Of a DNA stretch of 47,667 nt, positions 2,661-46,382 are shown in pieces; position 1 is the stretch's first letter; each line of letters begins with the position of its first letter. Source of the stretch: a virus; the IMG/VR virus record IMGVR_UViG_3300025099_003492, positions 1-47,667 of that record. One strand, 5' to 3'. A model generated the notes under the pieces. The model saw only the letters and a list, made by a program, of their open reading frames with translations, was not told the DNA's origin and searched no databases. Made by a program: the position numbers and the translations under genes.

Positions 2661-3751
2661 TGGCAAGAGTAAACTATGAAACTCTCGGTAAACTCATCGA
2701 TGTGGATGAGAAAGACTTGGAGTTCGAAAGGGTTACAAATTCAATAGATATAGTAGATAGAGAGTATGGTGTAGAAGTCATATTCGATTATTACAGGCGT
2801 CATGGATTCCCCCACTACACAATTCGTGAAGATGAAAAACACGACCACTTAAAGAAACTGAGAAAGTTTGATGTCGATACGATATTCAAAGATAATCAGA
2901 TAGTACAGACTATGCATGGTTTGAGGTTGTGTTGGACTTACCATCCACACTTTTGGGAAGTGGTGTGTGGTAGTGCTAAAAAATCACCGATGGAGATATT
3001 CTTGGATGACGATATGTTCAAATCTACAATTAGAAAGTGTTGGAATTGGGAACAGAAACACTATAAAGGTGAAGACCCAAATGGGGAGAGAAATGTATTT
3101 CATGAAAATAGACTTAGACAATCAATAAAAATTTATAGTGGTACTCAATCCGTAAGTAATTTCAGACCTACGGCAGCAAAACTAATCTATGAAAAGTATG
3201 GTGGAGATGGAGTTGTGTGGGATATGAGTTGTGGATGGGGTGGAAGACTACTTGGTGCACTATCATCGAAAAATATTCGGCATTATATTGGAACGGAACC
3301 AAGTTCTAAAACATATGATGGTCTGATAAAAATGAGCAAAGATTTTGGTTATATAAACAAAAAGGTAAATATATATAAACAAGGAAGTGAAGAGTACATA
3401 CCAAAGAAAGAGTCTTTGGATTTGTGTTTTACCTCACCACCTTATTTTGATACTGAAAAGTACTCAGAAGAATCAACACAAAGTTATAAAAAGTTCCCTA
3501 CCCAAGATGAGTGGGTGAATGGTTTTTTAAGACAGACAATTCAAAATTGTTATAACGGACTTAAAGATAATGGTTATATGTTATATAATATAGCAAATAC
3601 ACCAAAATATAAATTCATAGAAGAAGAAACAATTAATATTTCTAAATCACTTGGATTTATTCAAGAAGAAACAATACAGCTAACATTATCAAGTGTAATG
3701 GGAGCAGGATATAAATACGAACCCATTTTTATTTTTAGAAAAGGAGAATAA
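2660..3751 (+). CDS. DNA adenine/cytosine-N4 methyltransferase
   Basis: The 363-residue protein has an AdoMet-binding motif I, VWDMSCGWGGRLLGAL (from about residue 186), and a catalytic TSPPYFD motif IV (about residues 258-264), the (S/N/D)PPY signature of amino-methyltransferases acting on adenine-N6 or cytosine-N4. Motif I precedes motif IV. The first 150 residues carry no domain I recognise and may contact DNA. No restriction endonuclease partner adjoins it, so it is probably an orphan protective or regulatory methylase, as is common in phages. It starts on the stop of the gp62-like gene (TAATG) and ends one base before the ClpP start. The target sequence is unknown. Confidence 0.8.
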   Translation: MARVNYETLGKLIDVDEKDLEFERVTNSIDIVDREYGVEVIFDYYRRHGFPHYTIREDEKHDHLKKLRKFDVDTIFKDNQIVQTMHGLRLCWTYHPHFWEVVCGSAKKSPMEIFLDDDMFKSTIRKCWNWEQKHYKGEDPNGERNVFHENRLRQSIKIYSGTQSVSNFRPTAAKLIYEKYGGDGVVWDMSCGWGGRLLGALSSKNIRHYIGTEPSSKTYDGLIKMSKDFGYINKKVNIYKQGSEEYIPKKESLDLCFTSPPYFDTEKYSEESTQSYKKFPTQDEWVNGFLRQTIQNCYNGLKDNGYMLYNIANTPKYKFIEEETINISKSLGFIQEETIQLTLSSVMGAGYKYEPIFIFRKGE

Positions 3752-36186: not shown

Positions 36187-36691
36187 GGATTATATAACAG
36201 AGATACCTAATTTTCCGATAGAAGGAGTAAACTTCAAAGACCTTTCACCATTACTGGCAGACCAAGAAACATTTAGGTCAGCACTTGTGGACATGGGTGG
36301 ACACTTTGATGACGACTTACCTAACTATTGGATTGGTATAGATTCAAGAGGATTTTTATTCTCATCAGGTTTAGCCACATATTTTGGTGGTGGTGTAGTG
36401 TGTGCAAGAAAGGAAGGAAAGACGCCAGGTGATAAAGTGTCGATAGGTTATGATTTGGAATATGGTAAGGCCATATTAGAATTACAACCTTGGTACGGCC
36501 CAAATGGTACAAACAAGGTAGTGATTGTGGATGATGTATTGGCTACAGGTGGAACCCTCAAGGCAACTAACGAGTTAGCAATAAGAGCAGGATATGAGGT
36601 TGTAGGTAATTTGGTGTTAGTAGATTTGAAATATGTTCCAAGAGTAGAAGATTTTAATTTAAATGTAAGGAGTGTAATACAATATGATTAG
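36176..36691 (+). CDS. apt: Adenine phosphoribosyltransferase
   Basis: A 171-residue type I phosphoribosyltransferase. TEIPNFPIEGVNFKDLSPLL is the Apt-specific opening, IGIDSRGFLFSSGLA the second element, CARKEGKTPGD the flexible loop, and NKVVIVDDVLATGGTLKAT the PRPP loop (VVIVDDVLATGGT). It makes AMP from adenine and PRPP. The adjacent MetK and nucleosidase fit a SAM recycling module in which Apt salvages the adenine released from SAH or MTA. Full family length. Confidence 0.92.
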   Translation: MSYKDYITEIPNFPIEGVNFKDLSPLLADQETFRSALVDMGGHFDDDLPNYWIGIDSRGFLFSSGLATYFGGGVVCARKEGKTPGDKVSIGYDLEYGKAILELQPWYGPNGTNKVVIVDDVLATGGTLKATNELAIRAGYEVVGNLVLVDLKYVPRVEDFNLNVRSVIQYD

Positions 36692-37637
36692 GACAGCAGA
36701 GTTCGTATCACCTGGACATCCAGATAAGATATGTGACAGAATATCAGATAAGATTTTAGATACTTGTTTAGAACAAGATTCTGAGTCGAGGGTAGCAATA
36801 GAAACGGCAGGTGGTCATGGTTCAGTTCATTTGACTGGTGAGATAACCACAAATGCTGAATTAGACTACGAATCAATAGTAAAGGAAGTTTGTGGTATTG
36901 AAAAGGTTACTCACAATGTAGTGAAACAATCTAACTTTATCAAACAAGGTGTTGATGTTGGTGGAGCAGGTGACCAAGGCATTATGGTTGGTTATGCATG
37001 TGATGAGAACGACCAATATGTTCCACAAGAATATTATATAGCAAGGGATTTATGTAGACATCTATACGAGAAATTTCCTTATGATGGTAAAACACAAATC
37101 ACAACAGATGACCATTGGATAACACACATCGTCACGAGTTTTCAAAATACAACTACTGATGAACTAAAAACAGCAGTAAATGATTATATGGAATGGGAAA
37201 CCGATGATATTAAAATCCATTGTAATCCAGCTGGAGATTGGGAACAAGGTGGTTTTGATGCAGATGCAGGATTGACTGGTAGGAAGTTAGTAGTTGATAA
37301 CTACGGCCCAAGAGTTCCAATCGGTGGTGGAGCATATAGTGGTAAAGACCCAAGTAAGGTTGATAGAAGTGCAGCATATATGGCAAGGTATATCGCTGTT
37401 AGTGAGATGAAGTCTAAGAAATTAGATGAGTGTTGGGTTTACTTGAGTTATGCTATAGGTGAGAAAGAACCACTACAGGCTACAGCTACAGATGGTAAAA
37501 CAATTTGGAATATATCAGAGAAATATTCTGTATATCCAAATGATATAATTGAATATTTAGATTTAAAGAAACCAATATATTATGAAACCTCACAATGGGG
37601 AGCATATGGAAATGGTTTTAGATGGGACTTATTATGA
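36684..37637 (+). CDS. metK: S-adenosylmethionine synthetase
   Basis: The 317-residue protein has all MetK landmarks: FVSPGHPDKICDRISDKIL (catalytic His and Asp of HPDK), GGAGDQGIMVGYACDEND, GGFDADAGLTGRKLVVDNYG, and GGGAYSGKDPSKVDRSAAY (P-loop-like and K-type metal residues). It makes SAM from methionine and ATP. It is shorter than E. coli MetK (384), missing N-terminal-domain material, but the active-site segments are intact. About half a dozen SAM-using enzymes lie in the window. Overlaps apt by 8 bases. Confidence 0.95.
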   Translation: MIRTAEFVSPGHPDKICDRISDKILDTCLEQDSESRVAIETAGGHGSVHLTGEITTNAELDYESIVKEVCGIEKVTHNVVKQSNFIKQGVDVGGAGDQGIMVGYACDENDQYVPQEYYIARDLCRHLYEKFPYDGKTQITTDDHWITHIVTSFQNTTTDELKTAVNDYMEWETDDIKIHCNPAGDWEQGGFDADAGLTGRKLVVDNYGPRVPIGGGAYSGKDPSKVDRSAAYMARYIAVSEMKSKKLDECWVYLSYAIGEKEPLQATATDGKTIWNISEKYSVYPNDIIEYLDLKKPIYYETSQWGAYGNGFRWDLL

Positions 37638-40910: not shown

Positions 40911-41648
40911 ATGAGTACAAAAAAACAAAGGGTTTACAAATCACCCATAGGAGCGATTCCTAAAATTGTAAATAATTTTGAGTCAAAGACACTCAATCAA
41001 AAAGTATTCTATGATATAATAAGTGAAGAAGAGACACAATTAGTTTTATGTCATGGAATAGCAGGAACTGGTAAAACATATGTATCAATCTATAAGGCAT
41101 TACAAGATGTTTTAAGGAGAGGTACAGGATATGATAAACTAATTATCATCAATCCAACTGTAGATGTTGGTAACGAGGATAAGTTAGGATACCTACCTGG
41201 TGAATTAGACAAGAAGATACAACAATATAACGAATCAACATTTACCATATTGGATAAGATAGTTGGTAAGGCAAAGGCTGGTAAGATGATTCACGATGGA
41301 AAGATTGAGATTGGAGTATTAAACTTTTTGAGGGGAACTAACTTAGAGAATTGTTATGTTATATTAGATGAAGCACAGAATGTATCACCTATGCAAATCA
41401 AAACAATTATGACGAGAATATCACATGATTGTAAGATGATTATTCAAGGTGATTTATCACAATGTGATAAATACAAGACCAATGGTGTTACCAACTATGA
41501 AAAAAGTGGATTCTATGATGTATGGAATAGATTAAAAGGTGTTGAGGGAGTCAATCATATGGAGTTTAGTCGAGATGATTGTATCAGACATCCATTAGTC
41601 AAGAGAATACTAAAAACATACGAGGATGAGCACGAAATAAGGTTATAA
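40911..41648 (+). CDS. phoH: PhoH-like ATPase
   Basis: The 245-residue protein matches PhoH: LCHGIAGTGKTYVSIYKAL (Walker A, Gly49-Thr56), IIINPTVDVGNEDKLGYLPG, EIGVLNFLRGTNLENCYVIL then DEAQNVSPMQIKTIMTRI (Walker B), and MIIQGDLSQCDKYK (the sensor). PhoH proteins are cytosolic ATPases common in marine phages, often linked to phosphate stress, with unproven function. Full length for phage PhoH. The start has a short GGTG-type site; a TAATG joins the next gene. Confidence 0.93.
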   Translation: MSTKKQRVYKSPIGAIPKIVNNFESKTLNQKVFYDIISEEETQLVLCHGIAGTGKTYVSIYKALQDVLRRGTGYDKLIIINPTVDVGNEDKLGYLPGELDKKIQQYNESTFTILDKIVGKAKAGKMIHDGKIEIGVLNFLRGTNLENCYVILDEAQNVSPMQIKTIMTRISHDCKMIIQGDLSQCDKYKTNGVTNYEKSGFYDVWNRLKGVEGVNHMEFSRDDCIRHPLVKRILKTYEDEHEIRL

Positions 41649-45079: not shown

Positions 45080-45562
45080 ATGTTAAAGACATTTGATGAA
45101 ATAATAGAGGTAACATTACACCACGAAGGTGGATATGTACACGACCCGTCAGATTTAGGCGGAGAAACTAACTATGGTATAGCAAAACGATTCTATCCTG
45201 ATGTGGATATCAAAAACCTAACGAAAGAAGGGGCAAAAGAAATCTACAAGAAGGACTATTGGGATAAGAACAAGGTGGATGATTTAACCGATGATTTAAA
45301 ACATATATTCTTTGATATGTGTGTGAATCAAGGTAGGGGAACTGCCGTAAAGATACTACAAAGAGCCATCAATGGTAAAGGTGGAGATTTAAAAGTAGAT
45401 GGTGGATTCGGACCTGGTACAAAGAAGGCATTTGATAAGTACAAACCCTCATTGGATAGGGTAAGGTGTTACAGACTAAAACATTATTATGATTTAGTAA
45501 ACAGAAAACCTGAACAAGAAAGATTTTTATTTGGATGGTTCAAAAGGGCACTTTCTGTATAA
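45080..45562 (+). CDS. GH108 N-acetylmuramidase (endolysin)
   Basis: The 160-residue protein starts with VTLHHEGGYVHDPSDLGGET then NYGIAKRF, the GH108 signature with the catalytic Glu16 in the EGG motif. DGGFGPGTKKAFDKY is the peptidoglycan-binding (PG_binding_3-like) end. GH108 enzymes (ZliS family) hydrolyse peptidoglycan between N-acetylmuramic acid and N-acetylglucosamine. No signal peptide is visible, so release would need a holin. An AGGAG site precedes the ATG. The structured RNA candidate follows. Confidence 0.9.
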   Translation: MLKTFDEIIEVTLHHEGGYVHDPSDLGGETNYGIAKRFYPDVDIKNLTKEGAKEIYKKDYWDKNKVDDLTDDLKHIFFDMCVNQGRGTAVKILQRAINGKGGDLKVDGGFGPGTKKAFDKYKPSLDRVRCYRLKHYYDLVNRKPEQERFLFGWFKRALSV

Positions 45563-45576
45563 TAAAAACTTTTTAT

Positions 45577-45586
45577 CTTATATTTA
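45577..45586 (+). promoter_or_regulatory. Possible phage promoter -10 (CTTATAT motif)
   Basis: CTTATATTTA lies about 10 bases before the first paired base of the structured RNA (45591). The same CTTATAT core lies at 4380 and 6735 in other gaps. With this as a -10 element, the start would fall near 45590, at the foot of the terminal stem. That fit raises the likelihood of a separate transcript, though it is inference. Confidence 0.4.
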
Positions 45587-45590
45587 TATA

Positions 45591-45738
45591 TGAGTTACAC
45601 ATCGGGTAGAGCTCAAACAGAGGATGGGGAGCATAATTACTACATCTCAGTAGAACTCGGTAGAACGATTAAGTACAATTATGTTCTAAAGCAAAATAGA
45701 CAACCCGCTCTACTCTGTTTTCCGATGTGACCAACTCA
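45591..45738 (+). ncRNA. Candidate structured RNA with long-range stem and possible alternative/pseudoknot pairing
   Basis: In the 201-base gap at 45563-45763, distant parts pair perfectly. 45591-45596 (TGAGTT) pairs with 45733-45738 (AACTCA), and 45598-45605 (CACATCGG) with 45722-45729 (CCGATGTG), making an outer stem. Inside, 45615-45622 (AAACAGAG) pairs with 45713-45720 (CTCTGTTT), and 45606-45612 (GTAGAGC) pairs with 45707-45713 (GCTCTAC); these two cross, so they form either a pseudoknot or two exchangeable folds. 45632-45638 (CATAATT) pairs with 45677-45683 (AATTATG). G+C is higher than around it. There is no tRNA or tmRNA signature and no poly-U terminator. It may be a free RNA or the leader of the 45764 gene. 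Confidence 0.6.
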
Positions 45739-45763
45739 ATGGGAAGAAAATAGGAGTAAGAAA

Positions 45764-46099
45764 ATGGCATTAGTAGATTTAGTCAAAGGAAAAGACACAC
45801 CTACACCAAATAAAGGTGCAAGTGGTAACATTCCAACTGATTCACCAGCAGGTGCAGGAGAAAATTTTGTACCTTACTCTTCAAGAATAATAGATGGGGC
45901 AAAAGATGTTAACCCAATGGGAAGTCCAATTGGTAGACATTTAAATAATGGTCTTGATGTATTACCACAAGGTAACCCAAATGGTAGACACATCAATAGT
46001 GGAAATACCGTATTACCACAAGGTAGTCCACAAGGAAGACATATTAATTCCCCTCTCGGTAATGGTTCTTTAAGAAAATCACCATTAGCAGGAGAGTAA
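45764..46099 (+). CDS. Short repeat protein with P(Q/M)GxPxGRH units
   Basis: A 111-residue, Gly/Pro/Asn-rich protein with no predicted helix or membrane segment. Residues 48-98 are three 17-residue repeats around PMGSPIGRHLNNG, PQGNPNGRHINSG and PQGSPQGRHINSP. Such Pro-Gly repeats look like a flexible or fibre-like structural element rather than an enzyme. It follows the structured RNA with an AGGAG site before the ATG and is followed by the XhlA-like gene. Function unknown. Confidence 0.6.
   Translation: MALVDLVKGKDTPTPNKGASGNIPTDSPAGAGENFVPYSSRIIDGAKDVNPMGSPIGRHLNNGLDVLPQGNPNGRHINSGNTVLPQGSPQGRHINSPLGNGSLRKSPLAGE
45905..46057 (+). repeat. Three tandem 51-bp coding repeats
   Basis: Units 45905-45955, 45956-46006 and 46007-46057 each encode 17 residues of the form (D/T)V(N/L)P(M/Q)G(S/N)PxGRH(L/I)N and three more variable residues. 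The second and third units share most bases of GTATTACCACAAGGTA. The unit length is a multiple of three, so the frame is kept. Confidence 0.75.
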
Positions 46100-46100
46100 A

Positions 46101-46382
46101 GTGAATCAAGCCGATAGAAAAGAATTTGATTTAATACACAATAAAATAGATACTATCAAAGAAGATATTGAGAGAATGAATAATGATATCAATAATGCTC
46201 ATCAAAAGACCGATGAAAATTTGAAGTTTATAAAAGAAAGTCTATTCAATCCACACGAAGGATTATGGGCAGAAACGAAACAAAACACGAGTTTCAGAGA
46301 ATCAACAACCAAATGGAGAGGTGTTATTGGAGTTGGTTTTATTGGTCTTGTATTGGATAAAATTTGGGGTATGTTCCAATAG
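46101..46382 (+). CDS. XhlA-like holin/membrane-associated protein
   Basis: It starts at a GTG with an AGGAGAG site in the end of the previous gene and has 93 residues. A long charged helix (LIHNKIDTIKEDIERMNNDI through KTDENLKFIKESL) is followed by TTKWRGVIGVGFIGLVLDKI, one C-terminal membrane segment. This coiled-coil plus C-terminal helix plan matches the hemolysin XhlA/holin-like family. It lies just after the muramidase, so a lysis role is likely but not proven. Confidence 0.6.
   Translation: MNQADRKEFDLIHNKIDTIKEDIERMNNDINNAHQKTDENLKFIKESLFNPHEGLWAETKQNTSFRESTTKWRGVIGVGFIGLVLDKIWGMFQ

Follow-up and report, generated by a model that had tools for sequence, protein, structure and literature searches.

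It has been described that, in bacteriophage T4, an RNA structure at the lysozyme gene e sequesters the ribosome-binding site (RBS) in early readthrough transcripts, while the late transcript lacks the 5' part of this structure (PMC3014915). The leader of T4 gene 32 carries a pseudoknot that is recognised by a protein in the autoregulation of gp32 (PMC3014915). T4 also makes the stable small RNAs C and D, whose role is unknown (PMC3014915). Furthermore, bacteria and phages possess Y RNAs, the partners of Ro60/Rsr proteins, in which a bulged stem is conserved and the cap varies (PMC4726728).

Here, we analysed a 47.7-kb record of an uncultured virus, the whole of which is called the window, with a structured RNA candidate at positions 45591-45738. 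Since the contig of one of its homologues, L066, contains a T4-type gp23 capsid gene, we regard the phages carrying this RNA as T4-like. The locus resembles that of T4 gene e in being an RNA structure near a late-type promoter at a lysis gene of a T4-like phage. However, the present RNA lies downstream of the promoter motif and would be transcribed in full, the window fold leaves most of the RBS unpaired, and no helix holding the RBS or the start codon, as in gene e, was found. With the gene 32 leader it shares the position of a structured 5' leader some tens of nucleotides before the RBS, but the gene is another one, no pseudoknot is supported and a binding factor is hypothetical. RNAs C and D are alike by description, as small RNAs of a T4-like phage, but are located in the tRNA region. 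The likeness to Y RNAs consists in the bulged stem, the variable cap and the occurrence of a Ro60 gene in one lineage of carriers; in contrast to Y RNAs, the present RNA has neither an Rfam match nor a trustworthy adjacency to Ro60, and other RNA candidates are found at the Ro60 gene.

The Locus and Its Neighbouring Genes

The candidate lies in an intergenic gap of 201 nt (45563-45763). Upstream of it, on the + strand, is a GH108-type lysozyme/endolysin gene (45080-45562; PF05838 with E=1.9e-25, PF09374, and PHROG 315, endolysin), and downstream a gene for a small repeat protein (45764-46099, + strand). The AGGAG RBS of the latter (45752-45756, + strand) is outside the RNA fold, with an unpaired probability of 0.6-0.96 in the folded leader of the window. 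The repeat protein had no match in Pfam, PHROG or NCBIfam, and its sole close relative was found in contig 3300030419_004017. It is followed by a gene for a 93-aa protein that is polar in its N-terminal part and has a single hydrophobic segment towards the C terminus (46101-46382, + strand), for which 98 relatives were found among viral contigs and whose PHROG matches were weak and of unknown function. Judged by its position and the look of its sequence, this protein is holin-like.

Elsewhere in the window, about 33 kb (6967-40226) are filled with mostly overlapping genes on the same strand, which by eye resemble glycosyltransferases, sugar epimerases/dehydratases and methyltransferases and are unusually many of this kind for a phage. 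A gene at 36684-37637 resembles, also by eye, S-adenosylmethionine synthetase, and a PhoH gene is present at 40911-41648.

Homologues of the RNA

Lysozyme relatives were collected from IMG/VR, and 80 of the 307 found were kept. In three of these 80, namely L002 (the same contig as L083), L024 and L066, a sequence related to the RNA directly follows the lysozyme gene; a pattern scan with both strands of the conserved core found no additional contig. A search with the clade-B small protein brought up a fifth member, L231, which occupies the same site and differs slightly in its core. The five members fall into clade A (the window and L002/L083) and clade B (L024, L066 and L231). In all five, which are uncultured marine viral contigs, the RNA lies after the GH108 lysozyme gene and the motif TATATTTAT and before small lysis-side genes. 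The original prediction had named control of the repeat-protein gene as a possibility; this was too narrow, because the repeat-protein gene is confined to clade A and in clade B a gene for a small protein of 93-96 aa, related to the product of 46101-46382, is directly 3' of the RNA instead.

Searches of 100 related viral records with model R1, and of 50 more with model R2, recovered no sixth member, the other matches reaching 10-18 bits, and in none of these 150 records was there a second copy of the RNA. This RNA family is thus rare in this collection. Relatives lacking the RNA do exist, so that it is not required for expressing the downstream gene.

As predicted, the segment is not a tRNA or tmRNA, since a search for these found none. 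An Rfam search, which had also been proposed, matched no family: at the gathering score, none of all 4227 families matched the window or L024, and at E<=10 the best matches were weak (E 0.4-6.6) and belonged to unrelated families. When 50,697 phage records were searched at the DNA level with the window and clade-B queries, nothing or chance pieces of 27-31 nt were obtained, and the core pattern gave 16 matches in bacterial genomes, none of them followed by the 3' core. The RNA family is therefore new to the libraries searched here, and cultured phages gave no match. A likeness of UGGGGAGCA to 16S rRNA helix 24 is expected by chance and was dropped.

Fold, Covariation and Strand

All four pairings named in the original prediction are exact in the sequence: the outermost stem 45591-45596/45733-45738 (TGAGTT/AACTCA), 45598-45605/45722-45729 (CACATCGG/CCGATGTG), 45615-45622/45713-45720 (AAACAGAG/CTCTGTTT) and 45606-45612/45707-45713 (GTAGAGC/GCTCTAC). 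The segment is also richer in GC (0.41) than its flanks (0.31 and 0.39) and the window (0.33), as had been noticed. Compared with dinucleotide shuffles, it folds with z values of -3.1 to -3.6, and none or one of 200-300 shuffles was as good. Since its minus strand folds about equally well (z -4.2), the strand is not decided by folding energy alone.

Two helices were predicted on the + strand of every homologue. P1 pairs 45598-45604 with 45723-45729 and is formed in 5/5 with a pair probability of 0.99-1.0; an eighth pair, 45605/45722, is added in clade A. P2 pairs ACAGAG (45617-45622) with CUCUGU (45713-45718), at a probability of 0.82-0.97 in all five. On the minus strand of clade A, P2 is nearly lost (0-0.17). 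The outermost 6-bp stem is present in the window and L083, and absent from L024, L066 and L231. The two inner pairings said to cross each other share nucleotide 45713, and only 45615-45622/45713-45720 is conserved in the relatives. A pseudoknot formed from both was rejected on account of the shared base and because it would need a short linker to bridge about 14 stacked pairs.

P2 encloses a conserved core, whose 5' part GAUGGGGAGCAUAAUUA (45623-45639, + strand) is near-invariant and whose 3' part ACCCGCUCUAC (45703-45713, + strand) is invariant in the five homologues. Within the 5' part, G45623 is A in L231 and A45636 is G in L024 and L066; the core strands GAUGGGGAGCAUA and ACCCGCUCUAC are the same in all five, except for the G to A in L231. 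This change breaks the first pair of a 2-bp GA/UC extension of P2 (45623/45710, 45624/45709). A candidate helix P3, UGGG/CCCG (45625-45628/45704-45707), was predicted moderately (0.2-0.7), and, as the core hardly varies, covariation gives no evidence for this pairing. A further possible hairpin before UAAAG, P4 (AGAAC/GUUCU in clade A, ACACU/AGUGU in clade B), was left uncounted, because the alignment places its strands in different columns.

The check for covariation in related phages revealed compensatory pairs in P1 and P2. Setting aside an 11-nt stretch found only in clade A, the seven pairs of P1 and six of P2 form in 5/5 sequences. Between the clades, five pairs are changed on both sides, four of them consecutive in P2 (ACAGAG/CUCUGU in clade A versus CUGAAG/CUUCAG in clade B) and one in P1, whose innermost pair is G-C in clade A and A-U in clade B; for five sequences in two clades this signal is strong, but the changes may represent few events. 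Across the 49 stem-and-core positions, the window differs from L024 or L066 at 10, and the five compensatory pairs account for every one of them; L231 has one further difference, the G to A. Within clades, 0-1 of the 49 positions are changed, versus 3-21 of 71-79 positions in the cap and linkers. With the clade-B register set by hand and padded with N (automatic alignment without padding shifts P1), 98.9% of the cells were paired, whereas sliding the partners by 1-3 columns reduced this to 29-51% with zero two-sided changes, and 0/500 shuffles reached the 10 cells of the five compensatory pairs. Fourfold-degenerate sites of the lysozyme gene differ by 30% between the window and L083 and by 45% between the window and L024, with the core unchanged. 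The constancy of the core goes beyond pairing and suggests that some factor may recognise its sequence.

Between the window and L083, an internal 46-codon frame is disrupted by three indels (2, 1 and 1 nt), and in clade B it has no start codon. Since covariation was present and this frame was not conserved, neither of the two outcomes that the original prediction had named against itself was obtained. The proposal of a structured RNA at 45591-45738 was thus borne out by folding, by homologues and by compensatory pairs, and the conserved + strand RNA is very probably real.

Promoter Motif and Leader Position

A promoter-like element had been noticed upstream of the segment; it is real, and is better described as TATATTTAT at 45579-45587 (+ strand), a phage-specific late-type motif recognised by its enrichment and orientation in relatives. 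Related contigs provided 63 distinct stretches of 140 nt that precede the homologous small-protein gene; TATTTAT was present on the + strand in 46 of them, while shuffles gave an expectation of 4.5 stretches and a maximum of 10, and the reverse orientation was observed in 5. With 46 observed versus 4.5 expected, mostly in one orientation, TATATTTAT is not a chance AT stretch. The motif is kept in 5/5 RNA-bearing contigs. Its distance to the gene is 178-193 nt in RNA carriers versus 42-44 nt in clade-B relatives without the RNA, and, since the same motif precedes the same gene in both, the RNA sits within the leader of a predicted late-type transcript. The label "late" is given by analogy with the T4 late promoter and by the genes served. 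An antisense late promoter TATAAATA on the minus strand was rejected, since its sole occurrence in the window is the complement of TATATTTAT, an orientation seldom seen in relatives. In many relatives (L108, L134, L145 and others), the motif is only 13 nt ahead of the start codon of the small-protein gene, a spacing that suggests leaderless or nearly leaderless mRNAs.

A search for a terminator between the RNA and the downstream gene found none, and no expression platform was visible in the leader. The unpaired probability of the Shine-Dalgarno sequence (SD) was 0.60-0.96 in the window and in L231, 0.34-0.96 in L024 and 0.15-0.81 in L083, where it is partly paired, and the homologues share no helix that sequesters it. 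With the RBS mostly unpaired in the window fold and no terminator present, neither an RBS-hiding leader nor a terminator switch fits.

Ro60-Type Genes in Related Contigs

A Ro60-type protein (TROVE plus vWA_Ro60; 90-100% alike) is encoded in fifteen viral contigs, of which at least one belongs to a T4-like marine phage, the genes being located at L024:3912-5540, at L212:1423-3030 and in L216-L229. Before the Ro60 gene of L024 (3230-3425), and in the same stretch of L219, L222, L224, L225, L228 and L229, there is a probable multi-part non-coding RNA. It begins with two hairpins that show coordinated changes in their stems but little change in their loops, CUACGRUAAUUUG and CUACCUAUUUG; the hairpins are followed by a tRNA-like GGGGAAU...AUUCCCC module and a U run. 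This element, absent from Rfam, is a candidate for the Y RNA partner of the phage Ro60. Another hairpin, GGUGGUGAG...CUCACCAC, with U's after it (L024:3467-3530 and relatives), shows paired changes in L225 and L228 and is either a terminator or an RNA. Y-RNA-like elements just before the Ro60 gene (GGGUCGGAGUU) were discarded, because their indels of three mark them as small coding frames. Although 80 kb lie between the lysis and Ro60 regions in G039, the two adjoin in L024 at a repeated sigma-70-like promoter, TTGACTTTAACGAAAATATGTCGTAAGAT (about 3104-3109); given this repeat, their closeness may be due to a rearrangement or an assembly join.

Discussion

The RNA is best explained, with a probability of roughly 0.5, as a + strand leader RNA, structured and acting mainly in cis, at the 5' end of a late-type lysis-side transcript. 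That the folded RNA of about 130 bases is functional is very likely, and, judging by the motif, it is probably a leader transcribed from the TATATTTAT promoter; for action mainly in cis, we would put the odds at even or slightly below. Transcription would start around 45590, and the first 140 nt or so would fold into a long hairpin consisting of P1, P2, the bulged near-invariant core and the variable cap. The lysis-side genes would follow in the same transcript with no terminator between, and a factor recognising the constant core might alter the stability or timing of the downstream mRNA in cis, by an action other than hiding the RBS. The leader is possibly processed to a stable RNA. The cis-acting leader was ranked first because its position is fixed in both clades, although the gene directly downstream differs between them. 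It is unlikely that the RNA is a sensor whose bulged core binds a phage protein or a metabolite accumulating late in infection, and which thereby tunes the lysis-side genes and the timing of lysis.

A trans-acting small RNA, made from the same late-type promoter, cut out of the transcript (for instance when RNase E cleaves the A/U-rich linker that follows P1) and acting elsewhere through binding of its core to a protein or other RNAs, is a possible but tentative alternative. It was ranked second because relatives live without the RNA and the core is so constant, both of which fit a free RNA; the A/U-rich linker ACUAACAAAUAAAAAAUAAUAAAUGG after P1 in clade B and the precedent of T4 RNAs C and D (PMC3014915) also speak for it, but the RNA has the same leader position in 5/5 contigs, no terminator of its own and one copy per record. 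A Y RNA binding hypothetically to the phage-encoded Ro60 protein is suggested by the occurrence of a TROVE domain in only 2/100 related records, both of RNA carriers (G016 = L024 and G039 = L066), with the vWA domain of the L024 protein matching at 1.2e-63, as well as by the Y RNA build of bulged stem and variable cap (PMC4726728). We consider it improbable, since these two carriers are a single lineage, the Ro60 gene is about 80 kb from the RNA in G039, and in L024 the two regions join at the repeated promoter sequence. Moreover, Ro60 genes have their own conserved upstream hairpins and tRNA-like RNA candidate, 13 further Ro60 contigs, mostly short, carry no copy of the RNA, and Rfam, Y RNA families included, gave no match. 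Neither clade-A record (window, G001) has a Ro60 gene in its approximately 48 kb; the L231 contig measures 4.7 kb.

The original prediction of a regulatory RNA or leader stands as far as a conserved non-coding structured RNA in leader position behind a promoter motif is concerned, but the switch between two folds that it envisaged does not. In such a switch, the 3' strand would pair either in P2 or as GUAGAGC/GCUCUAC (45606-45612 with 45707-45713). Both pairings are perfect and mutually exclusive, and in clade A the SD GGAGUA could, from the look of the sequence, pair with a freed CUACUC strand. We nevertheless find this very improbable, as all three clade-B homologues lack the 11-nt stretch that contains GUAGAGC, and the GUAGAGC helix is weakly populated (0.03-0.08); since neither this 7-bp pairing nor the outermost 6-bp stem extends beyond the window's clade, a conserved switch is not supported. 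Translation of a leader peptide with ribosome stalling is equally hard to credit. The core does contain AUG GGG AGC AUA, which inspection found invariant in all five and which opens frames of 6-12 codons, but no spaced SD precedes this AUG, the frames diverge past codon 5 and end differently, and the invariant codons show no synonymous change, so that the bases rather than a peptide seem to be under constraint. Least probable of all is an artefact, be it chance complementarity in AT-rich DNA or an element acting at the DNA level or on the opposite strand: the minus strand folds equally well, and the change of G45623 to A in L231 retains a wobble pair on that strand only, but the compensatory pairs, the strand-specific promoter motif and the loss of P2 on the clade-A minus strand argue against it.

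If the reading as a cis-acting leader is right, a group of uncultured marine T4-like phages would possess, beside the genes that open the host, a family of leader RNAs contained in no library searched. For experiments, this family would offer a core of defined sequence together with two helices. It would also show that an entire structured leader can be acquired or lost by these operons in the interval from promoter to gene, providing natural comparisons of phages with and without it.
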